Made by a program: the position numbers and the translations under genes
Source: Alkalibacillus filiformis
Lineage (GTDB): Bacteria > Bacillota > Bacilli > Bacillales > Alkalibacillaceae
Assembly (NCBI RefSeq): GCF_030814115.1
Contig: NZ_JAUSUP010000013.1
Span: 1 to 53,144, forward strand
Reading direction: 5' to 3'
DNA length: 53,144 nt
Shown here: positions 2,275 to 22,374 of the stretch, piece by piece
Layout: each line of letters begins with the position of its first letter
Position numbering within the stretch: position 1 is the first letter of the stretch
Notes under the pieces: generated by a model
Seen by the model: only the letters and a program-made list of their open reading frames with translations
Database searches by the model: none
Told to the model about the DNA's origin: nothing

Positions 2275-2361
2275 TTAAATATAGCCTTTAGTTTCTAAAT
2301 AACCGATAATTTTGTTTACACTTTCTTCTACTGTCATAACATAAGGCTTAATAATAGTCAT
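2275..2361 (-). CDS. 28-residue ORF resembling the C-terminal helix of APS kinase
   Basis: A short ORF starts at ATG 2361 with a strong AGGAGG site 9-10 bases upstream and ends about 20 bp before the sulfotransferase start. The peptide contains MTVEESVNKIIGYLETKGYI, which looks to me like the end of CysC-type APS kinases (compare MSLDEATDYIVKQI at the end of the CysN/C in this window). No other part of a kinase is present. It may be a gene remnant, a small translated leader coupled to the sulfotransferase, or chance. The good ribosome binding site supports translation. Confidence 0.4.
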   Translation of the reverse strand: MTIIKPYVMTVEESVNKIIGYLETKGYI

Positions 2362-2456
2362 TACAAAATCCTCCTGTTATTAAAACTGAATATTCAAACA
2401 TTTACTTCGAAGATATAGAATATATGAAATAATGTCAAATAATAACTGGACAAACC

Positions 2457-2492
2457 TAAAAAAGCCCAAAGGCGAAAATACCTTTAGGCTTA
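2457..2492 (-). terminator. Terminator of the M14 repeat-protein gene
   Basis: On the minus strand an 11-bp stem with mismatches (2481-2491 with 2462-2472) is followed by a run of T. It lies just after the stop of the carboxypeptidase gene at 2510. Confidence 0.85.
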
Positions 2493-2509
2493 AAACTATT
2501 AATCTTTAA

Positions 2510-5230: not shown

Positions 5231-5265
5231 AACATTATCCCCCCTAAATAACTTTTTACAGGACC

Positions 5266-5274
5266 ATTATAACA
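5266..5274 (-). promoter_or_regulatory. Extended -10 promoter of the M14 repeat-protein gene
   Basis: The minus strand reads TGTTATAAT (TATAAT at 5271-5266, TG element at 5274-5273), about 35 bases before the TTG start. No good -35 box is seen, which fits an extended -10 promoter. The glucosaminidase gene at the other end has the same nine bases upstream. Confidence 0.6.
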
Positions 5275-5332
5275 GAAATATTGCGAAAATATTACAGAAT
5301 ATGGCTAAATACTTATAATTTTCCCAAAGGAA

Positions 5333-6736: not shown

Positions 6737-6754
6737 GACAATGCTCCTTTTAAT

Positions 6755-7795
6755 TTAATAGGCCATGCCACTAAACTTGTCGATAAAACGTTGATAAGCT
6801 TTTATAATATCTTCTATGTTACTTTCACCCAATGTAACTTCAGACTCTAACCTAACGATTGAGTAATTGTAGAAATAAACATCTCTGCACGTAGGATCAA
6901 ACTTCAACCCACAAGATTGAAACAGCTTAATTAACGAAGAATCAAATTGCCCGTTTAAGTAACATTCAATCAGTCTAAAGTCATCTCGTATAAATGCCTC
7001 GACAAACATGATGTTTAACACATCATAGTAAAAGATTTTGTTGGAACAATCTTCCCAATCAATCAAGTATAGTTCGTCGCCTTTTAATAACATATTCTCG
7101 AAATGTAGATCAGAGTGCATAGGTACAACAGGGACTAACTCTTCTTGGTTAACGACAGTTTTTAAGCTTGATAACAGACCATTTATAGAAGAGTTATTCG
7201 AAAAACGATCAAAATAATAATCTAAATTAATATAGTAAAACTTCTCATGTTGACTCGATAAGTATTGATCATATTGTTCAATCACCTGTTCTACAACTTG
7301 AATTTGTTGGTCAAAAGATCTTTCAATTATTGGTTGTGTATTAATTAATTGCTCCATAACCGTTCTCTGTTTTTGATCAATGTTCAGAATCGTCGTATTA
7401 AAATAAGGACTGAAGAAGTTGATTGTCTCTTCAAAAGCTTCAAAACGGGAACAGTCTTTAAAGTAAGTTTTAGTCAACTGATTTTTAAAACTGAACACTT
7501 TAATATCTCCACTTCGGTTTAATAATAACAGTCCACCTTTATATTTGTGATTTGACCCGTTATTCGTCCAGTTCAAAACCCTCTCAATAGACCTTTTCAC
7601 ATTTACTTTTACCGTATTGCTGTAGTCACTTTTAATTAATTGACTTACAAACTGTTCAGCTTCTGAGTCTTCTTTATAAACAATTCTCTTGCTGTGTAAA
7701 TGCGTTTTATATACTCCATTTTCTAAGTCAGGCTGCACCATGTTAAAGGCTTCTTTTAGCTTTCGATATTGTTTAACGTAATGTAACACTTTCAC
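6755..7795 (-). CDS. Kinase-fold phosphotransferase (APH/choline kinase-like)
   Basis: A putative cytoplasmic phosphotransferase of 346 residues. The catalytic loop of the aminoglycoside/choline kinase superfamily is clear: HSDLHFEN (H227, D229, N234) followed by the metal-binding LIDWED about 12 residues later. The N-terminal lobe is divergent. The substrate is unknown; a sugar, a choline-like amine or a lipid-linked intermediate are all possible. I place the start at GTG 7795, preceded by TAGGGTG. The frame stays open to 7858, but that extension would run through the pgcA terminator. It lies 18 bp before the flippase gene, so the two are probably co-transcribed. Resistance to an aminoglycoside is not implied. 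Confidence 0.7.
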   Translation of the reverse strand: MKVLHYVKQYRKLKEAFNMVQPDLENGVYKTHLHSKRIVYKEDSEAEQFVSQLIKSDYSNTVKVNVKRSIERVLNWTNNGSNHKYKGGLLLLNRSGDIKVFSFKNQLTKTYFKDCSRFEAFEETINFFSPYFNTTILNIDQKQRTVMEQLINTQPIIERSFDQQIQVVEQVIEQYDQYLSSQHEKFYYINLDYYFDRFSNNSSINGLLSSLKTVVNQEELVPVVPMHSDLHFENMLLKGDELYLIDWEDCSNKIFYYDVLNIMFVEAFIRDDFRLIECYLNGQFDSSLIKLFQSCGLKFDPTCRDVYFYNYSIVRLESEVTLGESNIEDIIKAYQRFIDKFSGMAY

Positions 7796-7824
7796 ACACC
7801 CTATCTGTCTGTCACACATATTTA

Positions 7825-7860
7825 TAAAAAAAGTGATGACACTACACAGTATCACCACTC
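7825..7860 (-). terminator. Terminator after pgcA remnant
   Basis: On the minus strand a stem with G-U pairs (GTGGTGATAC paired with GTGTCATCAC) is followed by seven T. It follows the end of the broken pgcA frame at 7872. Confidence 0.75.
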
Positions 7861-7871
7861 TTGTTGTATGT

Positions 7872-9391
7872 TTAAACTTTTGCGTTCACTCTTTTTAACA
7901 CTTCATCTTTAAGTGCTACAAGCCGTTCTTCTGCCTGCTCTTTCGTCTCACCCTTAACACCGAAGTAAAATTTAAGCTTCGGCTCAGTTCCAGACGGTCT
8001 TAAACAAGTCCAACAGTCATGGTCGAATTTGAACTTCACGCAATGTAATAACCAAGACGTTCATATAAAGAATCAAGAGCATCAAACAACGTTTTACCTT
8101 GAGACTTCCAGTATGCAGCCATTTCACTCGCTAACACCGTTGCTTGAACGGCATCTTTATCACGAGCAAAATCTTTCACTAAATAACCGTAGCTCTCTTC
8201 ATACCCAAAAACAAATTCATACTCTCCAGACTGATTGAACTCTTCAATCTTCTCAGCAATAAACTTGAACCCTGTTAGTGTATCAAGTGTCGAAATGCCA
8301 TGATGTTCTGCGACAGCTTGTCCTAATTGTGACGTTACAATCGTCTTAATCATCAAACCGTTTTCCGGTACTTCAGCTTTGTTAGCTAAAATATAATCCA
8401 ATAACAGCGCCCCTAATTGATTCCCTGTTAACACTTGATATTGATCCTCTCGATTTAAGGCCGCTACCCCTAAACGGTCAGCATCAGGGTCAGTTGCGAC
8501 TAATAGATCAGCCCCAACATCACGCCCTTTGTGAATCGCATATTCAAATGCTTGATGCTCTTCTGGATTTGGAGAAGAAACGGTTGAGAATTCAGGGTCT
8601 TCTACAACTTGTTCAGAAACCGCATGAACTTGGTTGAACCCTGCTTGTTTCAACCCTTCAGTCACAGGCATATTCGCTGTTCCATGTAACGGTGTAAATA
8701 CAATACTTAAATCATCAGCATGACGCTTTAACAAGTCATGATTCATCGTCACAGATTTTAGCGCAGTTAAATACGCCTCATCGACTTCACAATCGACCCA
8801 CTTCAACAAGCCCTTCTGATTAAGTTCTTCTTCACTTAGTACATCTATTTTCAACTCTTCTTCAACACAATTAACCTTCTCAATCATTTGATCGGCTTGT
8901 TTTGGTGGCAACTGTCCACCTACTTCATTGTAAACTTTATAAACATTGTATTCAGGTGGATTATGACTTGCTGTGATCATTACTCCAGCAGCCGTTTCTA
9001 ATTGACGCACAGCAAAAGACAATTCAGGTGTTGGACGTAGTGAAGTGAACACATAAGTTGGAATACCATGGACACCTAACACTTTCGCCGTCTCAAGTGC
9101 GAACTCTTTTGATTGATAACGTGAATCATAGGCAACGACTACACCACGCTCAGCGTTCCCTTGCTCTTCTATGTATAACGCTAGCCCCTTTGCTGCTTTA
9201 CGTACTGTATAGATATTCATTCGATTGGTTCCAGGTCCTAATTCTCCGCGCATCCCACCTGTTCCAAACTCTAACGTCTGATGAAAAGCATCTTCTAGTT
9301 CAGATTCATTCATTTGGAATAGCTTAATTTTTAATGATTCATCAAGTTGTTTAAACTCTCGCCACTTTTTGTACCGCTCTTGCCAACTCAT
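7872..9391 (-). pseudogene. pgcA: Alpha-phosphoglucomutase with internal deletion and frameshift
   Basis: Intact members isomerise glucose-6-P and glucose-1-P and feed UDP-glucose. The first 451 codons (9391-8036) are a good PgcA: active-site serine in TASHNPPEYN, metal loop DPDADRLG, and GYEESYGYLV. The frame then stops just after ERLGYYIA. The real C-terminus continues in another frame from about 8037: FDHDCWTCLRPSGTEPK, the phosphate-binding loop, ending in RVNAKV at 7872. The two parts total about 505 residues against roughly 580 usual, so about 75 residues are missing and the reading frame is lost at the joint near 8036-8040. The start is ATG 9391 with GGAG upstream, 4 bp after the VanZ-family gene. 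It is either a true disabling deletion or an assembly error. Confidence 0.88.
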
Positions 9392-9395
9392 ACCA

Positions 9396-9830
9396 TCACT
9401 CTCCTCTAGTTATTAAACGATAAAACACAAGATATATCAACATACCAAAACTAGCACCAACCGTATCTAAAACAACATCGCTCACTTCTCCGGATCTTCC
9501 TGGTATGTATAATTGATGCACTTCATCTGAAATGGCGTATAATAGACAAACTAAAATCGACACCCAAACACTTCTCTTTAACTTTACACCACTGATTCTT
9601 AAAGCATTTATCACAAGAACACCTAAAATAAAGTATACAAAAAAATGCGCCCCTTTTCGAATGACAATGTGTACCCATTCAGTATCAGCGTCAATAAAAG
9701 GCACAATCGAAAGCACGATTTCGACGACACTACCACTTAACTCACTTGATTCTTCTCCCGGCTGGTGAGAGAAATAAAAAATAAGCCCCATCCACATAAG
9801 GACAGCCAGCCAAGACACAATCTTCTTCAT
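9396..9830 (-). CDS. VanZ-family membrane protein
   Basis: This small membrane protein of 144 residues has four hydrophobic segments. The family signatures RKGAHFFVYFILG and ISDEVHQLYIPGRSGEVSDVVLDTVGA are present. The function of chromosomal VanZ-like proteins is poorly known; the original one gives low-level teicoplanin resistance. It lies 4 bp upstream of pgcA and was probably co-transcribed with it. The ATG is preceded by AAGGAGATGGG. Confidence 0.85.
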   Translation of the reverse strand: MKKIVSWLAVLMWMGLIFYFSHQPGEESSELSGSVVEIVLSIVPFIDADTEWVHIVIRKGAHFFVYFILGVLVINALRISGVKLKRSVWVSILVCLLYAISDEVHQLYIPGRSGEVSDVVLDTVGASFGMLIYLVFYRLITRGE

Positions 9831-9988
9831 AACCCATCTCCTTAAGCCCTACGATCAATCAAAAAACATTATGTAAAACAAAAATAACCTATCATCATAT
9901 AGTACAACAACTTCCATTATTTTGGAATCTATTAAACTAAAATCATAATGAAAATTAAGTGGAGAGATCAAATACCGCATTAAATTTT

Positions 9989-10018
9989 AAACTCCACCGC
10001 ACAAAGGCGGTGGAGTTT
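9989..10018 (-). terminator. Terminator downstream of the 74-residue gene
   Basis: A 12-bp perfect stem (9989-10000 with 10007-10018) is followed on the minus strand by TTTAAAATTT. On the plus strand it is followed by a T-rich tract after a short gap, so it may act both ways. A second weaker hairpin (GTGGG/CCCAC) lies at about 10052-10077. Confidence 0.65.
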
Positions 10019-10108
10019 CGTCTGAGTGTCTTTTTATTTTATTTTTTGGGGAAAGTGGGCTCCATTAATTCCCACTGTGTTTATTGAGAGTTATTTTCCG
10101 TTCAATTT

Positions 10109-10333
10109 TTAGTTACCTTGCCTTTTTTGGCGAAAATCTTCTTTAAGGACTTGTATAAACTTAAACATACTTAGAGGAATCTTGCCACCACTTAGCTTAA
10201 AGATCCTCCAATGAAGTCCGAGCATCTGTTCAAGATCTTCTTTCCGATTCTCCTTGGCGAATCTATAGTAAGCATGAATGAACTCAGATTTCATTTTTTC
10301 AATCTCTTCTGCTTTGTCTTTTACAGTTTCCAA
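10109..10333 (-). CDS. Small charged protein of unknown function
   Basis: The 74-residue product is highly charged and predicted to be helical (KDKAEEIEKMKSEF near the start, KFIQVLKEDFRQKRQ near the end), with no signal peptide or membrane segment. I do not recognise it. The start is TTG 10333, with GGAGGTGAGAAGG upstream. A hairpin terminator follows at 9989-10018, so it is probably a stand-alone gene. A possible -10 (TAAAAT) lies about 105 bases upstream, and two direct copies of ATTGTTCA lie above that, near 10480-10500. Confidence 0.55.
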   Translation of the reverse strand: METVKDKAEEIEKMKSEFIHAYYRFAKENRKEDLEQMLGLHWRIFKLSGGKIPLSMFKFIQVLKEDFRQKRQGN

Positions 10334-10602
10334 AAAGCTACCTTCTCACCTCCACTATAATTTGTTGAAAAAAGCTGCGATTACAATTAGTTCCTAATAA
10401 CCACCACCTTGTTCCTACAAAGTACATCTTTATTTTACAAAGTTTTCAGAATAAGTAAAGTACTTTTTTGAAAATAATTATGAACAATTTGTGAACAATC
10501 GCGCAAGAAAGTAACCATTGACCCATCATTATTTAATTTTTAGGTAAAAACGGCAGCCACAAGCTTGTTTATAGATATTATGAACAAGTTAAAGCTTGAT
10601 CG
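10334..10602. other. Non-coding stretch upstream of the small gene
   Basis: No coding sequence is seen. It holds the leader and probable promoter of the 74-residue gene, a direct repeat of ATTGTTCA on the minus strand near 10480-10500 that could be a regulator site, and an imperfect palindrome at about 10564-10590 (CTTGTTTATA/TATGAACAAG) just before the IS21 relic. Confidence 0.4.
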
Positions 10603-10819
10603 TTGTAAACGCTAAACTAAAGTAGACAGTTTTTGCTTAATAAAAGTTTACACTTTTCAATCAAAAATAACTCTCTGTAGTATGATAGAATGATCAACTG
10701 TCAGCGTCAGCAGTAGGATAAAAGATGGAATAGTGAGACAAATGTTTATGGAAATCTATCAAATTAAGAAACAACGATTTAAAATTAGGAGGATTGTAAG
10801 GAAGTTAGGTGTTTCATGA
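10603..10819 (+). mobile_element. IS21-family relic: left end and start of istA
   Basis: A 25-base end sequence (10603-10627, TTGTAAACGC through GTAGAC) is repeated in inverted orientation at 19701-19725. Short repeats of the GTAGAC/GTTTAC type follow, as in IstA-bound ends of this family. An ORF from GTG 10733 gives VRQMFMEIYQIKKQRFK then IVRKLGVS and stops at 10819. This is the N-terminal helix-turn-helix of an IS21 IstA transposase, cut off after about 28 codons. No further istA, istB or second end is seen here. Confidence 0.75.
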
Positions 10820-10901
10820 ACAAAAATTCAATAACAGTTTCAATTTGGCTATAATATATTTAATGCTCTTATTAAGTATTCTTTCGATGGATTAAAGTTA
10901 A

Positions 10902-10921
10902 AGGTGGCCTTTCGGCCACCT
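10902..10921 (-). terminator. Terminator of the ugd transcription unit
   Basis: An 8-bp GC-rich stem (AGGTGGCC/GGCCACCT) with a 4-base loop is followed on the minus strand by TTTAACTTTAAT, directly after the ugd stop. Confidence 0.8.
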
Positions 10922-12088
10922 CTAATCTCTACTAAACACATCTCTTGTATAAACTTTGTCACGAACATCTTGTAGTTCTTCTGATAGTCTATTGGCTACA
11001 ATTACATCAGATGAAGCTTTGAACTGATCAAAGTCGTTAATAACTTTCAAGCCTTCAAACTCATCGTCTGTTAGTGATGGTTCATAAACAACTATTTCAA
11101 CACCATTCGAGCGTAAGCGTTCAATAACACCTTGGATGGCTGGTTGTCTGAAGTTATCAGAATCTGTTTTCATCGTTAAACGATAGATTCCAACTTTCTC
11201 AGGGTTTCTTGCTAAAATTCTATCTGCATTGTGAGTTTTTCTTGTTTCATTAGCGTCGACAATTGCTGTAATGATGTTATTAGGTACATCTTCAAAGTTC
11301 GCTAATAACTGCTTGGTATCCTTCGGTAAGCAGTAACCGCCATAGCCAAATGAAGGGTTGTTGTAATAATCTCCAATTCGTGGGTCTAGACTTACCCCTT
11401 CAATAATTTGTTGTGTATCTAAGCCATTAATCTCGGTATAGCTGTCTAGCTCATTAAAGAAAGATACGCGCATTGCTAGATAAGTATTAGCAAATAGTTT
11501 AATAGCTTCTGCTTCTGTTGAGTTTGTAAATAGCGTTGGGATATCTTCCTTGATGGCACCTTCAGCTAATAGATTAGCAAACGTCTCGGCACGTTCTGAT
11601 TGCTCTCCAACGATAATACGAGAAGGGTGTAAATTATCGTATAACGCCTTGCCTTCTCTTAAAAACTCAGGTGAGAAGATAATATTCTCAGTATTATACT
11701 TCTTCCTTAACTCTTCTGTATAACCAACAGGGATTGTTGACTTGATCACCATGATAGCATCTGGATTAATATCTAAAACATTCTCAATCACCGTTTCAAC
11801 TGAGCTTGTATCAAAATAATTCTGTTCTGGAACATAGTTTGTTGGTGTTGAGATAACAACATACTCAGCATCTTTAAATGCTTGTTCTTTATCTGTTGTT
11901 GCTGTTAGGTTTAAGTCTTTAGTCGCTAAGAACTCCTCAATCTCAGGATCAACAATTGGAGATTGTTTATTTTTAATTAGATCTACTTTCTCTTCCATTA
12001 TATCTAATGCAATGACTTCATTATACTGGGCTAGTAGGACTGCGTTTGATAGACCTACATAGCCTGTGCCGGCGATTGTGATTTTCAT
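10922..12088 (-). CDS. ugd: UDP-glucose 6-dehydrogenase
   Basis: It oxidises UDP-glucose twice with NAD to UDP-glucuronate. The 388-residue length is that of the short E. coli-type Ugd. The NAD fold starts with [12 protein letters not shown], followed by [15 protein letters not shown], the [11 protein letters not shown] loop and the catalytic cysteine in [14 protein letters not shown] near residue 260. The different dehydrogenase at 29471-30811 is of the UDP-GlcNAc type, so this gene probably supplies glucuronate. It is the last gene of the run that starts with cysD and lies 38 bp after cysQ, which links uronic acid supply with sulfate activation. AAAGGAGA precedes the ATG. Confidence 0.92.
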
Positions 12089-12126
12089 ATAAAAGTCTCC
12101 TTTATGAAAGTTTGCTATTTAACAAC

Positions 12127-12909
12127 TTATCTTTTCACTAAAAACCATTCATTCAATAACTCTTTCTTATTATAAGTAAACCTCTCGCCATCTGACTCTC
12201 GTAACACTTGTCCACCTGCTGCTTCGACAATCGCTTGGCCTGCACCTGTGTCCCATTCCATAGTTGGGGCGTAGCGTGGGTAATAGTCTGCTTCACCTTC
12301 AGCGACTAAGCAAAACTTTAAGCTACTGCCGGATGATACAGTTTGAACATCACCTTTTAACCCTTCAATAAAAGCCTCAGTTTCTTCAGACATGTGCGAG
12401 CGACTTGCAACAACGTGAATCGTGTCGCGCTCTTGATCCATAGGCAATTCCACTGCTGCATCAAGCCAATAATCTGCAGTCACTTTTGATGCTTGTTCAA
12501 CTTTATAAGCACCCTCACTTTCTGAACCAATATACATAATGTCTAAAGCTGGTGCGTAAATCACACCTAATGTTGAAACATTTCCTTCAACAAGAGCAAT
12601 GTTAACGGTAAATTCACCATTTTTCTTAATAAATTCTTTCGTACCATCAACCGGGTCAACTAACCAAAACTCACTCCATTTCTTACGTTCTTCATAAGGA
12701 ATATCGCGACCTTCTTCGCTTAAAATCGGGATGTCTGGAAAAGCTGATTTCAGTCCTTGAGAAATCACGTGATGTGCTCGTTCATCCGCAATTGTTAGTG
12801 GGGAATCGTCTTCTTTAAATGCCACGTCGAAATCTTGTTCATAAACAGACATGATTTCTTTCCCTGCTTCTAAACAAATGTCATATAATGTCTTAATTTG
12901 ATCACTCAT
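12127..12909 (-). CDS. cysQ: 3'(2'),5'-bisphosphate nucleotidase
   Basis: It hydrolyses PAP, the by-product of sulfotransferases, to AMP. The 260 residues show the lithium-sensitive phosphatase motifs: LTIADERAHHVI, ILSEEGRDIPYEER, the metal site DPVDGTKEFIKKNGEF and the late WDTGAGQAIVEAAGG. It lies 18 bp after the permease gene and 38 bp before ugd. In a sulfation system it would relieve PAP inhibition of the sulfotransferases. Confidence 0.93.
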   Translation of the reverse strand: MSDQIKTLYDICLEAGKEIMSVYEQDFDVAFKEDDSPLTIADERAHHVISQGLKSAFPDIPILSEEGRDIPYEERKKWSEFWLVDPVDGTKEFIKKNGEFTVNIALVEGNVSTLGVIYAPALDIMYIGSESEGAYKVEQASKVTADYWLDAAVELPMDQERDTIHVVASRSHMSEETEAFIEGLKGDVQTVSSGSSLKFCLVAEGEADYYPRYAPTMEWDTGAGQAIVEAAGGQVLRESDGERFTYNKKELLNEWFLVKR

Positions 12910-12927
12910 ATATATTCTCCTTTCTTA

Positions 12928-14706
12928 TTAAAACCAAACAAAGTTCACAATGGTTACTGTCGTAATCATTACAAGTAATGCGAGTGGTGTACCGACTTTA
13001 ATGTAATCTTTAAAGTGATAGCCACCGGGGCCGTAAACAATCAAATTCGTTTGATAACCAATTGGGGTAATAAAACTGGCTGAAGCTGCGATGGCAATGA
13101 TTACAGCAAACCCCATGTAATCCACTCCTAATGTTGATGCCATTTCAAGTCCAATTGGAAGCATTAACACAGCAGCGGCACTATTAGTAATCAACTCTGT
13201 AAAGATATTCGTTAATATATACACGGCAGCTAACAACACCAATATACCCAATGGTTCACCTATTACTAGTAATCCATTAGCTAACCACGATGCCAAGCCA
13301 GTCTGTGTCATCGCTTCTCCAACCCCAAATGCACTAGCTATTAAAAGTAACACATTAAATTGGATATAACCCTTTGCTTCTTCTGGTGTTACTAATTTAG
13401 TAATCACGTAAATAAAGACGGTTAATAACATGGCTTTAAACATGGTTAAGAACCCAAGTGTTACTGACATGATCATCAATAGTAAAACCGCAATCGACAA
13501 CCATCCTTTACGTGGATTGCCATTTAAATCTTTCGGTGTCTCTAATGAAGACACAATATAAAAATTATTGGAGTTGCTGTAGCGCTTCACAAAATCTGAA
13601 CCGGCGAGTAAGAGTAATACATCACCAGGCTTTAAAATGATATCACCGATTTTACTTTGAATCCGTTCATTGTTACGGTGCACGGCTAGCACGCCGGCAT
13701 CAAACTGTGAACGAAACTGAGATTGTTTTATTGTTTTTGATAATAAAGAAGATTGGTGGGATACAACAGCTTCCACAAGTTGAACACCACCATCTTTTAA
13801 ATCCTCTAAGTCGAGGTTGGAACCTGTTTGTAGTTCTAGTCCTTTTATTTGTTGTAATTCTGCAATGGTTGACATCAATCCAGTAAAAATTAATCGGTCG
13901 CCCTCTTCAATGATGGTTTGCGATTTAACAGGTGAAAGGCGGTCTTCGCCACGAATAATTTCAATCAAGTATAGCCCTTTTAATTCACGTAATCCTGCAT
14001 CGGCAACCGTTTGGTTAACTCCATGAAATGATGATAACACGACCATTTCTGCTATGTATTCGCGTGTTTCTTCCTTAATACGTTCACTAAATCCTTTATG
14101 ACCTGGTAACAACTTATTTCCGATCGTAAATAAATAGATAAAACCGATAATCATGATTGGAATACCAACGACAGCAAGCTGGAATATACTAAATCCAGTT
14201 AGTTCACGATCCAATAACATTCCATGAATGACAAGATTCGTCGACGTACCCATCAGTGTAATCGTGCCACCTAAGATCGTGACATAGGACAACGGAATTA
14301 AAAATTTCGATGGAGCGATTCCGCGCTCCTCACACCAGTTTTTAATCATTGGGGTGAATGTGACAACGATTGGTGTATTGTTTAGAAAGGCAGATGATAA
14401 AGATGCTGGAAAAAAGAAACGAAACATCGCGTGTTTAACACTTTGACTTTGATCGAGCCACCTTACCATTAGCTTCTCCAACACACCATATTTTTGAATC
14501 GTTCCAGCTACTACAAATAATAATGCAATAGTTAACATACCTTGGTTAGAAAAACCGTTGAAGGCTTCTTGAGGTGTTAACAGGCCAGTTAAAACAAAGA
14601 CGATTAAGACAGAAAATACAATCATATAGGGGCGCGCCATTTCAAACAGTAAGGCACCAAACATAACTAAAATCATACATAGTACAAAAATCATCTCTAT
14701 TGTCAC
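12928..14706 (-). CDS. SLC13-family permease with two TrkA-C domains, probable sulfate importer
   Basis: A 592-residue inner-membrane transporter with hydrophobic blocks at about 1-200 and 395-590, separated by two TrkA-C-like soluble domains (about 205-375, with EGDRLIFTG and KPGDVLLLLAG). Conserved SLC13/DASS-type segments are visible: LNNTPIVVTFTP, LMGTSTNLVIHG, TNSAAAVLMLPIG and PIGYQTNLIVYGPGGY. Close family members are found beside cys genes and are taken to import sulfate; the gene position supports this, but the ion is inferred. The start is GTG 14706 with GGGGTGAT upstream. A terminator separates it from cysN/C by about 20 bp. Confidence 0.85.
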   Translation of the reverse strand: MTIEMIFVLCMILVMFGALLFEMARPYMIVFSVLIVFVLTGLLTPQEAFNGFSNQGMLTIALLFVVAGTIQKYGVLEKLMVRWLDQSQSVKHAMFRFFFPASLSSAFLNNTPIVVTFTPMIKNWCEERGIAPSKFLIPLSYVTILGGTITLMGTSTNLVIHGMLLDRELTGFSIFQLAVVGIPIMIIGFIYLFTIGNKLLPGHKGFSERIKEETREYIAEMVVLSSFHGVNQTVADAGLRELKGLYLIEIIRGEDRLSPVKSQTIIEEGDRLIFTGLMSTIAELQQIKGLELQTGSNLDLEDLKDGGVQLVEAVVSHQSSLLSKTIKQSQFRSQFDAGVLAVHRNNERIQSKIGDIILKPGDVLLLLAGSDFVKRYSNSNNFYIVSSLETPKDLNGNPRKGWLSIAVLLLMIMSVTLGFLTMFKAMLLTVFIYVITKLVTPEEAKGYIQFNVLLLIASAFGVGEAMTQTGLASWLANGLLVIGEPLGILVLLAAVYILTNIFTELITNSAAAVLMLPIGLEMASTLGVDYMGFAVIIAIAASASFITPIGYQTNLIVYGPGGYHFKDYIKVGTPLALLVMITTVTIVNFVWF

Positions 14707-14726
14707 TTCATCACCCCATTCCTATT

Positions 14727-14765
14727 AAAAAGGGCTACTACCATAACATTGATAGTAGCCTTTTT
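14727..14765 (-). terminator. Terminator between cysN/C and the permease gene
   Basis: An 8-bp stem (GGCTACTA/TAGTAGCC) flanked by A-run and T-run works in both directions. On the minus strand it ends cysD-cysN/C, only about 20 bp before the permease start. There is little room for a new promoter, so partial read-through may set the level of the permease, cysQ and ugd. Confidence 0.8.
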
Positions 14766-14768
14766 CGT

Positions 14769-16595
14769 TTATGCTAACTGTTGTTGAATTTGTTTTACGA
14801 TATAATCTGTTGCTTCATCTAAACTCATTTGACTTGTGTCAACTTCGATATCTGGGTTCTGTGGTGCTTCATATGGGCTTGTGACACCCGTGAAGTTAGG
14901 GATTTCTCCATCTCGAGCTTTTTGATATAGCCCTTTAACATCACGTTCTTCACATACTTCAAGTGGTGTACTGACATAAATTTCGATAAATGATTCACCG
15001 ATAATGTCACGTGCATTTTGGCGATCACCTTCGTATGGTGAAATAAATGACGACAACGTGATCAGACCTGCATCATTCATTAACTTACTTACCTCAGCAA
15101 TACGACGGATATTTTCGACTCGATCGGCCTCTTTAAACCCTAAGTTTTGGTTCAAGCCATGACGAACATTATCACCGTCTAATAACATCGTATGGTGGCC
15201 ATGTGCGACAAGACGTTTTTCCACTTCGTTAGCTAAGGTTGATTTACCTGAGCCAGATAAACCTGTAAACCATAGTGTAAGTGGTTGTTGGCCTTTCTGT
15301 TGTGAACGGATTGGACGTGTAATATCCGTATCTTGCCACACAACATTCGATGAGCGACGTAGAGCATGATTAACTACACCTGCAGCTGATGTCATGTTTG
15401 ATACACGATCAATTAAGATAAAACCACCAAGCGCTTCGTTATTTTCGAATTTGTCAAAAACAGCTTTCTCAGATAAGGCAATATCACAGACAACAAGCTC
15501 ATTTTTATAAACTTTGTCAGCTGGTACGTCATCACCTGTATTAATATCGATTTTATGTTTGATTTTCATGACTGTACCAGGAAGTGTTTTCGTTCCAAGT
15601 TTGACTAAATAGTTACGTCCTTCGACTAATTCGTCACCATCCATCCATAATAGTGTTGTCGTAAATTTATCGGCAACATTAAGCTCTTCATTTGTTGTTA
15701 AAACGTCACCACGTGATACATCGACTTCTCGATCTAATTGAACCGTGACAGCTTGGCCAATGCCCGCTTCACCAGACTCTTGATCTGAAACTAGTAAACT
15801 CTTAACATTTGCTTTCTCTTTACTTGGTAACGTTATAACTTCATCGCCAACATTAATTTGGCCTGATTCAACTTGACCTTGAAAACCACGGAATTGATGG
15901 CTTGGACGGCTAACGCGCTGAACAGGTAATGTGAACGCTGCTTCGTCCATTTGATCTGTCACATCAATATCCTCTAAATACTGTAGCAACGGCTTACCAT
16001 CATACCAAGGTGTGTTTTCGGATAATTTCGTGACGTTATCGCCAGCAGTTGCTGATACTGGAATAACTTGAATGCTCTCTAAATTGAAATTATACGTAAA
16101 CTGTTCAAATTCTTGTTTAATCTCGTTAAAACGTGCTTCATCATAGTCAACCAAGTCCATCTTGTTCACGGCTAAGACAATATGGTTAATCCCCATAAGT
16201 GAACAAATACGTGCGTGACGCTTTGTTTGCGCAATAACACCTTTAGTTGCGTCAACTAAAATTACCGCTAAATCCGCAAAAGACGCACCAACAGCCATAT
16301 TACGTGTATATTCTTCGTGTCCGGGGGTGTCTGCTACGATAAATGAACGGTTATCTGATGTAAAATAACGATATGCAACATCAATTGTAATCCCTTGTTC
16401 ACGCTCAGCCATAAGGCCATCTAGTAATAAAGAATAGTCTATTTCACCACCACGACTACCAACTTTACTATCGAGTTCTAATGCTTTTTCTTGGTCCGCA
16501 AATAATAGTTTAGCATCATATAGCATATGTCCAATTAATGTTGATTTACCATCATCGACACTACCACATGTGAGGAATTTTAATAGTCCCTTCAT
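14769..16595 (-). CDS. cysNC: Sulfate adenylyltransferase subunit 1 / APS kinase fusion
   Basis: The product is a two-domain enzyme of PAPS synthesis. The N-terminal GTPase half (CysN) shows the P-loop GSVDDGKSTL, DTPGHEEYTRNMA and NKMDLVD, followed by EF-Tu-like beta domains. From about residue 425 there is an APS kinase (CysC) with Walker A FTGLSGSGKSTLANEV, DGDNVRHGLNQNLGF and the FTGVTSPYEAPQNP tail. I set the start at ATG 16595 (608 residues), which overlaps the cysD stop (TAAAATG) and has GAGAGGGG upstream; the longer frame to 16652 lies inside cysD. With CysD it makes APS and then PAPS in the cytoplasm. Confidence 0.95.
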   Translation of the reverse strand: MKGLLKFLTCGSVDDGKSTLIGHMLYDAKLLFADQEKALELDSKVGSRGGEIDYSLLLDGLMAEREQGITIDVAYRYFTSDNRSFIVADTPGHEEYTRNMAVGASFADLAVILVDATKGVIAQTKRHARICSLMGINHIVLAVNKMDLVDYDEARFNEIKQEFEQFTYNFNLESIQVIPVSATAGDNVTKLSENTPWYDGKPLLQYLEDIDVTDQMDEAAFTLPVQRVSRPSHQFRGFQGQVESGQINVGDEVITLPSKEKANVKSLLVSDQESGEAGIGQAVTVQLDREVDVSRGDVLTTNEELNVADKFTTTLLWMDGDELVEGRNYLVKLGTKTLPGTVMKIKHKIDINTGDDVPADKVYKNELVVCDIALSEKAVFDKFENNEALGGFILIDRVSNMTSAAGVVNHALRRSSNVVWQDTDITRPIRSQQKGQQPLTLWFTGLSGSGKSTLANEVEKRLVAHGHHTMLLDGDNVRHGLNQNLGFKEADRVENIRRIAEVSKLMNDAGLITLSSFISPYEGDRQNARDIIGESFIEIYVSTPLEVCEERDVKGLYQKARDGEIPNFTGVTSPYEAPQNPDIEVDTSQMSLDEATDYIVKQIQQQLA

Positions 16596-16596
16596 T

Positions 16597-17496
16597 TTAG
16601 AAATACCCCTCTCGTTTGCGACGTTCCATGCTGCCTGCAGCCTCTTGGTCAATCACGCGACTTGTACGCTCAGATGAGACAGCGCCAAGTGTTTCTTCAA
16701 TGATTTCATCTAAGGTATCAGCTTCTGACTCCACACCACCAGTTAATGGATAACAACCCAATGTACGGAAGCGCACTTTCTTATGCTCAACTTTTTCATC
16801 TTCACCAATAGACATGCGGTCATCATCGACCATAACGATATTGCCATCGCGTTCAACCACTGGTCGTTCTTTCGCAAAATAAAGCGGGACAATCTCAATA
16901 TTTTCACGGCGTATGTACTGCCAAATATCTTTTTCTGTCCAGTTAGAAAGCGGGAACACACGCATGCTTTCACCTTTATTAATGTGCGTATTGTATAACT
17001 TCCACATTTCAGGCTTTTGATTCTTCGGATCCCACGCATGGTTTTCGTTACGGAATGAAAATACACGTTCCTTTGCACGTGACTTCTCCTCATCACGACG
17101 TCCACCACCAAACACTGCATCAAATCCATGTTTATCAAGTGCTTGTTTTAAAGCTTGTGTCTTCATGACGTCTGTATAAGACGCCCCATGATCAAATGGA
17201 TTGATCCCTTTTTCAACACCTTCTTGATTAATATGTTCAAACATTTCAATACCAAGTTCTTTTGCCTTTCGATCACGGAAATCTATCATTTCTTTAAACT
17301 TCCACGTCGTATTTACGTGTAGTAACGGAAATGGTGGTTTTTCCGGATAAAATGCCTTCATTGCTAAATGAAGCATAACTGAACTATCTTTACCGATCGA
17401 ATAGAGCATGACCGGGTTTTCACATTCTGCTGCTACTTCTCTTATAATATATATTGCTTCAGCCTCAAGTTGATCGAGGTGTGTTAGTTCTTTCAT
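16597..17496 (-). CDS. cysD: Sulfate adenylyltransferase subunit 2
   Basis: It forms APS from sulfate and ATP together with CysN. The ATP-pyrophosphatase loop [19 protein letters not shown] lies near residue 35, followed by [21 protein letters not shown] and [14 protein letters not shown]. The start is ATG 17496 with GGAGGT upstream (299 residues), nine codons inside the longest frame. It is the first gene of the cysD-cysNC unit. No cysH, sulfite reductase or other reductive gene is in the window, so the product is probably PAPS for sulfation. Confidence 0.95.
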
Positions 17497-17619
17497 TGAT
17501 AAGTACCTCCTTTGAAATTTCAAAATTAGTATACATTCAAACTATTAAAAATTTGCGAAAATATTTAATTTTATAGAGTGTCATTAAAACCTGTGGCTAA
17601 CTAAGTACACTTCTGACCC

Positions 17620-17763
17620 TCAATAACGAGCAGCAATAAAATTAAAAAACAAACCAAAGATTAGTGCAACAACCTTCCCAAGAAAAACAAAGCTTAGTTG
17701 TTTAGTTACATTGGATAACTCCTTTTTCATGTTCATCTTCTTAACTTTAGTAACTAACTTCAT
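17620..17763 (-). pseudogene. Truncated flippase, N-terminal fragment
   Basis: A frame from ATG 17763 (or 17736) to TGA 17620 encodes MNMKKELSNVTKQLSFVF then GKVVALIFGLFFNFIAARY. This closely parallels the start of the flippase at 20854-22374 (LKNVTKQSSIVFIGKILGLVF, FNLIAARF). Only the first of a dozen membrane segments remains. It begins about 10 bp after the polymerase stop, so it was probably the next gene of an older polysaccharide operon that was cut when the cys block came to lie beside it. Confidence 0.7.
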
Positions 17764-17772
17764 GTATCAGTT

Positions 17773-19203
17773 TTATTTAAAGTAATGATCCTGTCTAGAG
17801 CCTATATTTTGATCTTTTTCATATTTATTAATTACAGTTGATAGCCCCAATAAAATCCATAAATGTGTTACAATCCCATTCGTATTCATATTCATAAGAA
17901 TTTCATCATACCTTCTAAATAGAACAAGCTCATAAGCAACGAAATTCATAAAGAATAAAACTGAGATTAATAAAACTAATGGTAGAACCTTTAATGTATC
18001 TTTCTTTATTATCGCCTTAAATTTTATATGCGAAATTATAATATAATGATATAATACTGAACCAATGACTCCTAGTGTTGTTGCTAAATTTAACAATGAG
18101 TTATGAGCAGAAGTCCAACCTGTTTGCCCAAAAGTATTATAATAGTAATTCCCTATCCCGGTTCCCCACAACATATAATTATTTTCATTAATATACTCTA
18201 ATGTTAAATCCCATATCATCACCCTAGGTGTATTTAAACCTTGATCTAAAAAACGAGACATTGTTGTTGAAAACTCAGCTAGATATGAAGCGTTTAAAAT
18301 AAAAGGAATAATTAGTAAAGCATACACACAAAACAGAATTAACCTTTTTAATGTAATTGGAATTGTAATTAGAAATAGGCACATCCCCACTAAAAGGCTA
18401 AGTAGCGCACCTCTAGAACCAGTAACAAGTAACAAGAATATAAACACACCTATTCCAACAACATATACTGTATTAAATTTTTGGTAGTTTAGGTATAATG
18501 CTATTAAAATAGCAATTACTAATAAAACAGCTAACTGATTTGAATTAGTAAATATTCCCGAGAACCTTTCATTTTCTAAGGCTATATATATTATGTTCTG
18601 CGTTTCTAAAATAATTGTTGTTAGGCTATGGATTAGCATAACAACAAAAATTGTATTTAATACTAAATGTATATCTCTTCTATTTTCAACAATATTACTA
18701 ATAACTAGAAATATTGCATAAGGAATTATCCCCCCGTAAATAACACCATTAATAGCAACATCTATTCTCTCCGCGTTTATTACTGAGAAAATAGCAAAGA
18801 TTAGAACTACCCAATTAATATAAATTATTTTTCTATCTACTTTTAATCTCTTATTTACAAGTATCCTAGATATTAATACTATCCAATAAATCAAACTATA
18901 GTTTATAATTAAACCCAATAAAGAAAAGTTTAAAAAAACAATATCTCTCATAATATACCACTGCAGTAATGGGTAGATCATAAGATAAAGGAAAATTAAA
19001 TAAATATAGTTATTTTTTGTGATTGCCTCAACCAAAACCCATATACATACGAACATTGACAAATAATATATTACTGGAGGGCCACCCACATTTGATATAT
19101 CTATTAACCCCAAGTAATAAAGAACTATATATATAGGTAGTGATAATATAAAATTAACCAATGTCTTTGATGTAAAAAAAGAATGATAGTAAATTTTTAA
19201 CAT
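17773..19203 (-). CDS. O-antigen polymerase/ligase-like membrane protein (Wzy)
   Basis: The 476-residue protein has about 12 hydrophobic segments and a long extracellular loop near residues 310-365 ending in WGTGIGNYYYNTFGQTGWTSAHNSLLNLATTLG, the usual Wzy_C/O-antigen ligase signature (H in AHNSLL). Such proteins join lipid-linked repeat units. The gene is visibly richer in A+T than the neighbouring cys genes. Its ribosome binding site (AAGGATTGGG) is moderate. It lies between the truncated flippase and the IS21 relic. It is probably the polymerase of the heteropolysaccharide, but two other polymerase-like genes exist in the window. Confidence 0.85.
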   Translation of the reverse strand: MLKIYYHSFFTSKTLVNFILSLPIYIVLYYLGLIDISNVGGPPVIYYLSMFVCIWVLVEAITKNNYIYLIFLYLMIYPLLQWYIMRDIVFLNFSLLGLIINYSLIYWIVLISRILVNKRLKVDRKIIYINWVVLIFAIFSVINAERIDVAINGVIYGGIIPYAIFLVISNIVENRRDIHLVLNTIFVVMLIHSLTTIILETQNIIYIALENERFSGIFTNSNQLAVLLVIAILIALYLNYQKFNTVYVVGIGVFIFLLLVTGSRGALLSLLVGMCLFLITIPITLKRLILFCVYALLIIPFILNASYLAEFSTTMSRFLDQGLNTPRVMIWDLTLEYINENNYMLWGTGIGNYYYNTFGQTGWTSAHNSLLNLATTLGVIGSVLYHYIIISHIKFKAIIKKDTLKVLPLVLLISVLFFMNFVAYELVLFRRYDEILMNMNTNGIVTHLWILLGLSTVINKYEKDQNIGSRQDHYFK

Positions 19204-19272
19204 AAAAAAAGACCCAATCCTTTTTCATTTTTTTATAATAGATCTTATCTCTAACTTCACAGCATAGCCCTA

Positions 19273-19725
19273 TTGTAAGCGTCAAGTAAAAAAGAACACT
19301 TTTTGCTAATTAATTCTGAACACTTTCTTCCTCAAATATGGACGTTCGATTCTTCATCTGATGACTATTTTCATCGCGAAATTGAATGACTTCTACTCGA
19401 TGTAGAGCCCATCCAAAATGGCTGTGCTGATCCCTTGATCACCTAATATCACTTGGACCCTTATTTAAATTTATATAATCGAGGCTTTGTCATGTAAGTC
19501 ATTGATGAGATGGAAAAAGAGGTTAGCTTCTCTCTGATCCATCGCCATAAACATTAGATCATCAATAATGACCAGATTAACGTTTCTTAATCGTTTCATC
19601 CTAATTTGGGCTTTTCGTCTGAATTCTTCAGCTTTTAAATTCCTTATTAATTCTTCCAATGTTATAAACATGACCTGTTCCTCTTTCTTCTGGCCACTCG
19701 GTCTACTTTAGTTTAGCGTTTACAA
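19273..19725 (-). mobile_element. IS21-family relic with both ends and degraded istB
   Basis: On the minus strand it starts at 19725 with the same 25-base end as the relic at 10603 and finishes at 19273 with a related end (TTGTAAGCGTC on the plus strand, followed by repeats of GAACACTTT). All of istA and the start of istB are gone. The remaining istB fragment (19671-19471) gives VMFITLEELIRNLKAEEF, RNVNLVIIDDLMFMAMDQ and ANLFFHLINDL, the region around Walker B of the IstB ATPase. It is then frameshifted; pieces matching LGDQGISTAILD follow in other frames. The element is dead. Its 19725 end interrupts a sulfotransferase gene. Confidence 0.85.
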
Positions 19726-19799
19726 TGATTAGGGAATAAAACTTCTTGCATAAAATTTGTGCCAGTTTTGTGATATCCAATGTGAATAATTTTATCCAT
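19726..19799 (-). pseudogene. Sulfotransferase 5' fragment cut by the IS21 relic
   Basis: A frame from ATG 19799, with GGGTGGGTG upstream, encodes MDKIIHIGYHKTGTNF followed by MQEVLFPN and then runs into the IS end at 19725. HIGYHKTGTNF is the 5'-phosphosulfate loop of sulfotransferases and closely resembles HIGVHKTATTF of the gene at 1288-2253. The rest of the gene is not found beyond the IS relic. The gene would have followed the intact sulfotransferase at 19847. Confidence 0.75.
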
Positions 19800-19846
19800 T
19801 TTTTCACCCACCCAATTAATTAACTTTAATTAGCATTGAAACAAAC

Positions 19847-20824
19847 CTATTTATAACCTAGCATTTTTAAGTTTTTTTCTAAGTTTGAATTAACATACTC
19901 TTTTTCATTCAGAGACAATTCATGTTCCCATTTCCCTATTGAGTTTTTATTAACAGAATTATTTAAGTTCTTATGATGGCTTAAACTTGTATCTCCTAAT
20001 CCACCAATATTTTCATAGAAAGACAGCATAGATTCTTCGAATTTAATATTTAAAAAGTTGCATATTTTTTTTAGTTCATCTTTAGGATTTCTAACAATAT
20101 CTTCGTATTGAACTTCATAATATTGCTGCCTTTCTTTCTTCCTACCGAACTTCTTAGCTCGTGTAATACTTTCGTTCCACCTTTCACATGAATACTTTAA
20201 GTCATATAAACCCGCTTTTTGATAAGAATTTGCGACATCTCTACCATCCCTAATAATATGAATATACTTAGCATTAGGAAATAAACTATCTAACCAATTC
20301 AAACCTAACGTATTTAACGGAGTTTTATCTCCCCAAATTTGAGAACCAGGAAAATGAACTTCGGAATAATAAACATATAACTCATCTATAATATTTGCTA
20401 GAGTCCTTTTTTCCTTTGATAATAACTTGAGTCTTTGGTAGAGTTCATTTGTATTTATATCCCAAGTTGGAAATTGTTGATGAGATTCAAATTCACCTAT
20501 AACAATCTTCACCAATTCATCCCACTCTAAAAAATTATATGTATGGAACTTTCTAATGACTCTATTTAAAACATAAGATTCTGGTGGAATTGATATTTCT
20601 GAGTGGCTTGTAAGCATAGCTCGTAACAAAGTGTTTCCAGACCTACCCGATCCTATAATGAAAAAGGGCGTACAACTCACATTTTCAGTCTTATAATTGA
20701 GTGGAGATCTGTTTAATAAAAACCTTTTTAGTAATTTCGCTGTATCATACATATTATAAACTTTTCTAGGATATCTATTTTTTTTAGATATTTTGTTTTC
20801 TTTTAATGTTTTCACCCTGAACAC
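19847..20824 (-). CDS. Sulfotransferase family protein
   Basis: The 325-residue product has both PAPS-binding motifs: the 5'-phosphosulfate loop FFIIGSGRSGNTLLRAML (residues about 51-68) and the 3'-phosphate site YIHIIRDGRDVANSYQKAG. WGDKTPLN and CERWNESI also fit the Sulfotransfer_3 type. The predicted acceptor is a glycan repeat unit on the inner membrane face or an exported one; the protein has no signal peptide. The start is a GTG; either 20824 or a second GTG nine bases downstream is possible. It follows the flippase gene by about 30 bp and precedes the truncated sulfotransferase. Codon use is AT-rich like the polymerase. Confidence 0.85.
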   Translation of the reverse strand: MFRVKTLKENKISKKNRYPRKVYNMYDTAKLLKRFLLNRSPLNYKTENVSCTPFFIIGSGRSGNTLLRAMLTSHSEISIPPESYVLNRVIRKFHTYNFLEWDELVKIVIGEFESHQQFPTWDINTNELYQRLKLLSKEKRTLANIIDELYVYYSEVHFPGSQIWGDKTPLNTLGLNWLDSLFPNAKYIHIIRDGRDVANSYQKAGLYDLKYSCERWNESITRAKKFGRKKERQQYYEVQYEDIVRNPKDELKKICNFLNIKFEESMLSFYENIGGLGDTSLSHHKNLNNSVNKNSIGKWEHELSLNEKEYVNSNLEKNLKMLGYK

Positions 20825-20853: not shown

Positions 20854-22374
20854 TTAATTGTTCTTAGTTTTATTTCCTTTTATTTTATCCATAATTTTAT
20901 ATAAAATAAATTTGTCATCATTACTTAAACCAAATAAATACATAACTAACGAAAACAACAAAATGGTTATTGGTACATATATAATTAAATCTACTATATA
21001 AGATATAGTAAAAACCATTTTAATAAAGTACACTGACACAAAACTAATCAAAACAGCAAATATAGCATTGATATATTGGAAACTATATGGATGTATTCGA
21101 TAAAGCTTATATACTAACAACAATCTTATAATGTTTGCCAGAGCGACTGAAACTAGAGAAGCGACCGCTGCTCCTGATATACCATGGTTAGGAATTAACA
21201 TAAGGTTTAATACTATATTTATTACAACTATTAAAATATTAATATACATGCCATACATTGAGTAACCTGTCATAATTAATATATAACCTGATGAACCGAC
21301 TCCTACGTTTACCAGCTGGCCACAAGCAATTATAACTAGCACAGTAGATCCTATTAAAAACTCTTCACCAAACAAATACATTATTTCATCATTTAGCAAA
21401 AGAATAATACTAAAAGCAAATAAATTAACTATAACAACCCATTTTGTAATGGTCTTAAACATGGATTCTAATTCTTTCATATCCCCTCTATGAAAAAGAG
21501 AAGATATGGTTGGAGCAAACATCATATTAAAAGCTACAAGTATAAAACCGCTTAAAGTTCCAATTTGTAACGCAATTCTATACACCCCTACCTCTTCGTC
21601 TGTTAAAAAGTAGCCTATCATTAAGATGTCAGTTTTTTGACTTATAAATCCTAAAAACCCTGTAAACATTAATGGCAAGGAATAAATTAATACTTTCTTA
21701 TATTCCTTTAAAGCATCTATTTTTATTCTTGAAAAAAGCTTTTTGTTGTGAACTTTATATATTAAATAAAGAACACCAATAAAGATAGAAATATAAAATG
21801 AAAGAACTAATGTTTCTAAAGTTGTTCCTAATAATGTTAAAGCAAAAGTTAGTGATATAATTTTTAGAATTGGTATAATTATATCTTGATTAATAACAAA
21901 TGGTTTAATGTCTTTAATACCTCTAAAGACACCTTGAGTTAATTTTGATAACACTAACAATATTATTAACGGTGACAATATTTTAATTATATAACTATAA
22001 TCAGATTCAGAACCATTTAATAAAGATCCTATCCATTCACTATTAGTTATTAATAAAATAGTAAATAATAAACTTACAAGAAGTACAAAAATATAACTAA
22101 TACTTATTATTTGATTCCTGTAGTTATAATTCTTTTCTTCAGTCATTTTTGGTAAATAATACACTAACCCCTGTTGCAAGCCTAATAATGCTAACATAGG
22201 AAAGAAGCTTATAAAAGTAAATATTAATGTGAATTGACCATATACTTCAGCTCCAAGAAAACGTGCTGCAATTAAGTTAAATAGAAGACCAAATACAAGC
22301 CCTAGGATTTTACCTATAAAAACAATACTTGATTGTTTAGTAACATTTTTTAATTCACTTCCCACAACATACAC
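20854..22374 (-). CDS. Polysaccharide flippase (Wzx)
   Basis: This 506-residue protein has about 14 membrane segments and the N-terminal flippase pattern SIVFIGKILGLVFGLLFNLIAARFLGAEVYGQFTL. It should translocate lipid-linked repeat units for the central cluster. The start codon is a GTG; AAAGGTG sits just in front of it, so a GTG four codons in (VGSELKN) is an alternative. It lies 16 bp after a glycosyltransferase gene and is followed by the sulfotransferase, so the three are probably one operon. Confidence 0.88.
   Translation of the reverse strand: MYVVGSELKNVTKQSSIVFIGKILGLVFGLLFNLIAARFLGAEVYGQFTLIFTFISFFPMLALLGLQQGLVYYLPKMTEEKNYNYRNQIISISYIFVLLVSLLFTILLITNSEWIGSLLNGSESDYSYIIKILSPLIILLVLSKLTQGVFRGIKDIKPFVINQDIIIPILKIISLTFALTLLGTTLETLVLSFYISIFIGVLYLIYKVHNKKLFSRIKIDALKEYKKVLIYSLPLMFTGFLGFISQKTDILMIGYFLTDEEVGVYRIALQIGTLSGFILVAFNMMFAPTISSLFHRGDMKELESMFKTITKWVVIVNLFAFSIILLLNDEIMYLFGEEFLIGSTVLVIIACGQLVNVGVGSSGYILIMTGYSMYGMYINILIVVINIVLNLMLIPNHGISGAAVASLVSVALANIIRLLLVYKLYRIHPYSFQYINAIFAVLISFVSVYFIKMVFTISYIVDLIIYVPITILLFSLVMYLFGLSNDDKFILYKIMDKIKGNKTKNN

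Follow-up and report, generated by a model that had tools for sequence, protein, structure and literature searches.

A probable PAPS-supply module for surface-glycan sulfation in the Gram-positive bacterium Alkalibacillus filiformis

Most of what is known about sulfated polysaccharides comes from animals, algae and cyanobacteria; more recently, some Gram-negative marine bacteria have joined them. In rhizobia, NodP-NodQ with NodH/NoeE presumably represents a dedicated CysD/CysNC-type supply of 3'-phosphoadenosine 5'-phosphosulfate (PAPS) for a sulfotransferase, as in the locus described here; unlike in this locus, the rhizobial target is a lipo-chito-oligosaccharide. In this study, we analyzed contig NZ_JAUSUP010000013.1 of Alkalibacillus filiformis, a stretch of 53,144 nucleotides (the window; contig C13 of the 2.72-Mb genome G000, assembly completeness 97.89%), in which cysD, cysNC, a permease gene, cysQ and ugd lie in a row among polysaccharide and sulfotransferase genes. 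This run is very probably a PAPS-supply module that serves surface-glycan sulfation, and it was probably acquired laterally.

Among known systems, the sulfated-capsule operon of Cobetia marina KMM 1449 comes closest. In the available part of its description, it combines a bifunctional cysN/cysC with cysD, cysQ and a gene for a sulfate permease, and the polysaccharide cluster also contains sulfotransferases (PMC11766843). CysD, CysNC, CysQ and an anion permease stand together in the window as well. C. marina is Gram-negative, exports its capsule by an ABC (Kps) system and has a solved sulfated capsule structure (PMC11766843), whereas the window comes from a Gram-positive bacterium in whose genome no reductive branch was found, has Wzx/Wzy and teichoic acid genes and would specify a polymer predicted from genes. 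The capsule locus of Vibrio sp. KMM 8419 likewise holds cysC, cysN and cysD copies with sulfotransferases, and PAPS genes together with sulfotransferases were termed a hallmark there; unlike in the window, cysC and cysN are named as separate genes, cysQ is unmentioned in the available text, and the organism is Gram-negative with ABC export (PMC11641403). The synechan (xss) cluster of Synechocystis resembles the window in that its sulfated exopolysaccharide is of the Wzx/Wzy type and its two sulfotransferases belong to different subfamilies. It differs in its cyanobacterial host and in the knock-outs and sulfate analysis that were performed; PAPS is unmentioned in the text, and in the portion of the paper at hand no PAPS-supply operon is listed (PMC8205485).

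In 2021, sulfated polysaccharides were described as exclusive to cyanobacteria among bacteria, again in the portion at hand (PMC8205485); the available part of a review reports six bacterial genera as producers (PMC11625862). A first-pass annotation of the window, made from the sequence, had called sulfated surface polymers little described in Gram-positive bacteria. In the papers searched, this holds at the gene level, but less so for the polymers: sulfate was measured in an exopolysaccharide of Bacillus licheniformis, in a paper whose available text mentions neither sulfotransferase nor gene cluster (PMC11039919), and was suggested for a Virgibacillus exopolysaccharide by elemental and infrared data in the part available (PMC9570845). 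Among the titles and abstract openings listed by searches of the open-licence literature, no paper dealt with sulfation gene clusters in any Bacillota species or with sulfated teichoic acid, and the available parts of PMC10978704 and PMC4189415 leave this unchanged. The kind of system is known; the form found here, which is Gram-positive, linked to teichoic acid genes, free of reduction and exchangeable, is undescribed in these listings. It offers genetic access to sulfated polymers of Gram-positive bacteria and a signature for genome mining.

The PAPS-supply run

16597-17523, minus strand: cysD, ATP sulfurylase small subunit (TIGR02039, 496.3 bits, cut-off 396.6; NF009214, 519.6, cut-off 413)
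14769-16652, minus strand: cysNC, fusion of the ATP sulfurylase GTPase subunit and adenosine 5'-phosphosulfate (APS) kinase (NF004035, 868.6, cut-off 715; TIGR02034 over cut-off)
12928-14706, minus strand: SLC13/DASS-type permease with TrkA_C domains (PF03600, PF02080 and PF00939 over cut-off)
12127-12909, minus strand: cysQ, phosphatase of 3'-phosphoadenosine 5'-phosphate (PAP) (TIGR01331, 291 bits, cut-off 228.8)
10922-12088, minus strand: ugd, UDP-glucose 6-dehydrogenase type (TIGR03026 over cut-off)

The five genes run head to tail from 17523 to 10922, with intergenic gaps of about 1, 62, 18 and 38 bases. From its start region, cysNC likely begins where cysD ends, at an ATG near 16595 that comes immediately after the stop codon, and AG-rich, ribosome-binding-like stretches lie ahead of cysQ and ugd. 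All genes named at first pass, these as well as the sulfotransferases below, were found where they had been placed. The APS-kinase domain of CysNC scored 246.9 bits against TIGR00455 (cut-off 138.7). The earlier label of a sulfate-type permease stood as far as the SLC13/DASS-like family is concerned; the protein stayed below the cut-off of TIGR00785 (108.9 against 198.6), and sulfate as its substrate goes beyond these matches, although sulfate uptake is its probable function. Ugd matched the equivalog NF011631 over its full length (5.5e-188), yet under the cut-off. The run has a G+C content of 37-41% in its five genes, compared with 34.5% in the window, and 28-31% G+C is found across 17-25 kb, just upstream of it.

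The link between cysQ and ugd recurs in relatives, whose genomes, contigs and loci carry our labels G, C and L. A ugd relative of 74-76% identity comes next after cysQ in L018 and L021, while in L027 the two are ~3 kb apart, and an 81% identical ugd adjoins cysQ in the genus mate G004; in the genus mate G005 it is on the same contig.

Sulfotransferases and their candidate substrates

19847-20824, minus strand: ST2, Sulfotransfer_3-family PAPS sulfotransferase (PF13469, E 1.2e-34)
1288-2262 (ATG at 2253), minus strand: ST1, divergent PAPS sulfotransferase (PF00685 match of a homologue, predicted fold)
19725-19799, minus strand: ST1-like N-terminal stump of 25 aa with the PAPS P-loop motif (local alignment score)
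20854-22374, minus strand: Wzx-type flippase (PF01943)
17773-19203, minus strand: Wzy-type polymerase / O-antigen ligase family (PF04932)
122-1240, minus strand: wecB/mnaA, UDP-GlcNAc 2-epimerase (TIGR00236 over cut-off)

ST1, ST2 and the stump all lie within the polysaccharide locus. The predicted model of ST2 has a sulfotransferase fold, in line with its PF13469 match; against the NoeE equivalog it reached 56.5 bits (cut-off 500). ST1 itself has no Pfam or NCBIfam match, and a profile search with it of the Protein Data Bank (PDB) sequences found nothing. A homologue 51% identical to ST1 passes the PF00685 cut-off (25.5 against 22), and the predicted ST1 model shows a sulfotransferase fold with a P-loop motif, which we take to be the 5'-phosphosulfate-binding (5'-PSB) motif. 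This model is closest to glycan sulfotransferases of the heparan-sulfate type, one bacterial entry of unassigned substrate excepted, and ST1 may thus offer a bacterial enzyme resembling heparan-sulfate sulfotransferases. The third, cut sulfotransferase seen at first pass was borne out: the stump aligned to its best relative with a local score of 82, against a maximum of 49 over 200 shuffles. With a PF03567 protein on contig C1, three intact sulfotransferases of three kinds were found in the genome.

In the proposed pathway, the permease would import sulfate, and CysD-CysNC would convert it to APS and then PAPS, as is established chemistry for these families. In the cytoplasm, ST2 and ST1 would sulfate sugars of a repeat unit carried on a lipid, using the sulfuryl group of PAPS; the unit would be flipped by Wzx and polymerised by Wzy, and the inhibitory by-product PAP would be cleared by CysQ, again by established chemistry. 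UDP-glucuronic acid would come from Ugd and, because ugd lies in the same run, its product and the sulfate, both predicted, probably enter one polymer that is carboxylated as well as sulfated. The gene set fits an anionic polymer with uronic acid, the structure of which cannot be read from genes.

The sulfuryl group might instead go to something other than a polysaccharide, such as a tyrosine of a secreted protein, a flagellin glycan or a small molecule. By fold and among solved sequences, ST2 is nearest to tyrosylprotein sulfotransferases and to sulfotransferase domains of the polyketide type (CurM), and the substrate of ST2 could accordingly be a protein or a small molecule, although similarity of fold does not reveal a substrate. 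The position of ST2 between wzx and wzy speaks against such a target, as do its relatives in L020, L025 and L027 (46-47% identical), which stand by wzx genes no more than ~8 kb from the module, and the nearest folds of ST1. Two further settings speak for a target other than a polysaccharide. In Oceanobacillus limi (L045, 1-17316), the module has flagellin glycosylation genes of the NeuB/Maf type on one side and a flagellin gene on the other, a hint that a flagellar glycan is sulfated; a PF13469 search of the O. limi genome found no sulfotransferase. In the window genome, a locus on contig C1 (L152, G000:C1:32700-52699, 663-11222) holds sat, cysC and the PF03567 sulfotransferase beside nonulosonic-acid-type (pseudaminic-like) genes, including a NeuB-family synthase. 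On balance, a non-polysaccharide target is quite unlikely.

The trio of sat, cysC and a PF03567 sulfotransferase also occurs in G001-G003, where it was the only such locus among the places found; a PF03567 search of G004 and G005 found nothing. We read it as the second sulfation locus of this genus. The idea that the cysD block is the sole PAPS source had to be given up, since sat and cysC on C1 form another.

Returning to glycan sulfation, it is tempting to speculate that ST1 is dedicated to sulfating wall teichoic acid or the glycans that decorate it. In relatives (where tag, wzx and similar labels denote BLAST matches to window proteins), ST1 relatives stand directly beside tagF-like genes in G005, tagH-like genes in G011 and weakly tagB-like genes (30% identity) in G018; in G010 one lies within the tag locus, in three Salinicoccus they adjoin cysD, and the window ST1 adjoins mnaA/wecB. 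The tagO, tagA, tagB/F and tagGH families are present in the window locus, which does not imply the acceptor of ST1. The proposal appears unlikely; if true, it would mean a Gram-positive sulfated teichoic acid, made by cells that activate sulfate but are unable to reduce it.

Sulfate reduction and sulfotransferases in the genome, family and order

The central claim of the first-pass annotation was that PAPS is made here for sulfation and not for reduction. Ordinary assimilation, in which CysDNC and CysQ supply a PAPS reductase for cysteine synthesis and the nearby sulfotransferases are incidental, was tested first and rejected for the window genome. CysDN(C) and CysQ are so used in many bacteria. 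A PF01507 search of the whole genome for CysH returned only CysD over the cut-off, with two matches below it, and a PF01077 search for a full-length sulfite reductase (CysI or another NIR_SIR protein) returned only one protein of 212 aa. Neither mark of assimilatory sulfate reduction, CysH or a full-length sulfite reductase haemoprotein, was thus found in the genome, and the case named beforehand as fatal to the claim, cysH and sulfite reductase genes elsewhere, did not turn up in this genome-wide search. Because both are missing from a 97.9% complete assembly, PAPS would be unusable for cysteine by the known route. The 212-aa protein (L004 1261-1899, G000:C5) has the NIR_SIR domain only and is too short for a sulfite reductase; the small gene adjoining it presumably encodes a CsoR-type regulator.

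The same question was asked of 22 genomes of the family, including the window genome, which were searched for sulfotransferases with the profiles PF13469, PF03567 and PF00685 and the ST1 protein as query, and for APS kinase with PF01583. Both were found in 15 genomes, a sulfotransferase only in one, a kinase only in none and neither in six (Fisher p 9.4e-5, kinship ignored). A sulfotransferase is present in 15/15 genomes that have the kinase and absent from 6/7 that lack it. The single genome with a sulfotransferase but no kinase, G017, is 82% complete; on its contigs C20 and C31, stops interrupt sat and ST1, which looks like joint decay. The count includes G016 because of a 26% identical match to ST1 (E 1.9e-7) and G001-G003 and G009 by PF03567 alone; with PF13469 and ST1 only, the table becomes 11, 1, 4 and 6 (p 0.02). 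CysH-type matches were obtained in three of the 22 genomes (G009, G018, G021), all three among the 15 kinase-bearing ones, leaving 12 without CysH; G001 and G020, in which PF01507 matched less strongly and the frames measure 528-542 aa, were not counted as having it. No NIR_SIR frame above 500 aa was found in any of the 22. The three genomes with CysH have no NIR_SIR protein at E 1e-10, an odd half pathway. In this family, sulfate activation thus seems to be retained chiefly for sulfation.

Proximity was assessed in 17 genomes with both genes, excluding the window genome, using hand-transcribed positions with gene pieces merged. A sulfotransferase (PF13469 or ST1) lies within 30 kb of the APS kinase on the same contig in 13 of them, where random placement gave a mean of 0.87 and, over 20,000 draws, at most 7.

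Beyond the family, assimilation finds better footing. In 58 further genomes of the same order, 41 of the 44 with APS kinase also have CysH, and so do all nine Paenibacillus and Cohnella genomes searched, in which CysDNC lacks an adjoining permease or cysQ. The order exceptions with kinase and no CysH are G028, G040 and G073, and in G028 and G073 a PF13469 gene lies 22-23 kb from the kinase. With the reductive genes missing in the window genome, the kinase following sulfotransferases in the family and the module set inside polysaccharide loci, assimilation is very unlikely here, and the claim of PAPS for sulfation is strongly supported. Sulfation as the purpose of the module is well supported at the level of genes.

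Besides the resemblances of ST2 and the CysH counts of the order, several points weigh against glycan sulfation by this module. The supply of PAPS does not depend on the cysD block alone given the sat-cysC set, and the confidence of the ST1 model is low (pLDDT 59). Neither promoter nor terminator scans yielded better counts than shuffled sequence did. The nearest sulfotransferase is more than 30 kb from the kinase in four of the 17 genomes (G014, G018 with 30.7 kb, G021 and G064), and the relatives are not independent, as six of the 22 family genomes come from one genus. Among the 14 loci with the four-gene module described below, four show no sulfotransferase family match in the stretch although the contig continues (L018, L029, L030, L045), and in two, L021 and L028, the contig ends within the locus.

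The module in relatives and the surrounding genes

Among the best 80 named CysD loci (of at least 575 confirmed), 12 have cysD-cysNC-SLC13-cysQ in a row:

Gracilibacillus, seven loci: L017-L020, L025, L028 and L030 (cysNC in two frames in L030)
Bacillus, two loci: L021 and L027
Rossellomorea, one locus: L029 (permease in two frames)
Oceanobacillus, two loci: L043 and L045

Two further loci in G006 and G074 bring the total to 14, and L026 (Aquibacillus) lacks only the permease. A sulfotransferase (profile or Pfam) lies within the fetched stretch in eight of the 14 (L017, L019, L020, L025, L027, L043, L097, L098); in L018 one lies 11 kb from cysD, and in L029 there is only a PF10364 protein. The ST1 and ST3 labels of these loci come from iteratively broadened profiles and mean sulfotransferase-like only; the ST1 profile took in PF00685-like sequences, e.g., in L017 and, at 2e-4, in L059. 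A PF13469 match is present somewhere in 11/14 genomes with the four-gene module versus 4/20 Paenibacillus/Cohnella genomes searched, where the sulfotransferases and CysDNC occupy different contigs or are separated by 153 kb. In three Salinicoccus, an ST1 relative lies beside cysD-cysNC on the opposite strand. Several Gracilibacillus have a separate CysH/CysI/Sat set elsewhere (examples of module plus set are G100, G102, G103 and G108), so the module there is a second set added to assimilation. Neither CysH nor full CysI was found in six CysD genomes (G000, G006, G106, G107, G110, G126). PF10364 (NKWYS) proteins with a P-loop-like motif, QMGKVGS, lie a few genes before cysD (L017 8173-8967; L029 6855-7637) and are possibly a further sulfotransferase family.

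Other members of the family carry sat-SLC13-cysC-cysQ instead, namely the genus mates G004 and G005 as well as G010, G011, G016 and G018; G007 has sat-SLC13-cysC, with cysQ not seen in the stretch read. The sat-SLC13-cysC-cysQ loci share with the window the permease and the PAP phosphatase, and differ from it in having Sat in place of CysDN and a separate APS kinase. In G005, G010 and G011 the module lies amid tagO-, tagA-, tagG- and tagH-like genes; ST1 adjoins cysQ or is one small frame off in G005 and G010, lies near cysQ in G016 and ~12 kb from sat in G011. A sulfotransferase-like gene is in the stretch, in a teichoic acid or polysaccharide setting, in 5/6 of the Sat-type loci L153, L155, L158, L160/L161, L163 and L167. 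As the same module occurs with another ATP sulfurylase, the permease, the PAPS maker (CysDNC or Sat plus CysC) and the PAP phosphatase may form one exchangeable unit.

In a permease tree of 22 rows, the window copy falls inside 14 CysDNC-type rows (branch 100/98), apart from G004 and G005; the nearest outside row is the Sat-type permease of G018 (83/76). Two Salimicrobium permeases branch at a great distance; hence neither type forms a single clade. A CysQ tree did not resolve the placement of the window copy. The grouping of the window permease with Gracilibacillus-type modules points to lateral acquisition, and the supply module was probably gained by a lineage with relatives of the Sat type. 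Window CysD is ~90% identical to Gracilibacillus CysD, and in G. suaedae (L025) the order wzx (55% identity)-ST2-like (47%)-cysD-cysNC-SLC13-cysQ is nearly that of the window; the sulfotransferase and the flippase perhaps came along with the module. A plasmid search gave 314 records with CysD matches, none above 80% identity and from mostly rhizobial genera; the 20 matches listed include one Bacillota plasmid, from Paenibacillus.

Two remnants, which we take to belong to the IS21 family, flank the module:

19267-19725: decayed IS21-like element with IstB-like remains (translations; ends at the stump, far end set by eye)
10603-10860, plus strand: second IS21-like remnant, 25-bp end and IstA-like start (shared end; far end set by eye)

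They share an identical 25-bp sequence in inverted orientation (10603-10627 and 19701-19725). A composite transposon carrying the 9-kb block was considered because of these ends and rejected, as the left flank lacks the sulfotransferase remainder: the best of many weak tblastn matches there had E 0.05. No target duplication matching the two ends was seen by eye, and transposition of the block is not claimed. That the remnants and the 25-aa stump mark a decaying, possibly silent island in the course of being lost is extremely unlikely, since the five module genes, ST1 and ST2 all have intact reading frames and ribosome-binding-like stretches precede cysQ and ugd.

Further surface-sugar genes in the window include an initiating-transferase type, dehydratase types, aminotransferases and the following:

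29471-30811, minus strand: nucleotide-sugar 6-dehydrogenase, a second uronic-acid source (TIGR03026 over cut-off)
37178-49034: wzz and wall teichoic acid genes among others (PF02706, PF04464, PF00953, PF03808, PF00005, PF01061), presumably, from these families, wzz, tagF/B-like, tagO, tagA, tagG, tagH and tagB/F-like

Finally, two secreted-looking proteins (2510-5230 and 50505-53042) share, by eye, many copies of a repeat of ~60-80 residues (DRTHVY...SYxxG...WY), which precede a carboxypeptidase-like and a glucosaminidase-like part.

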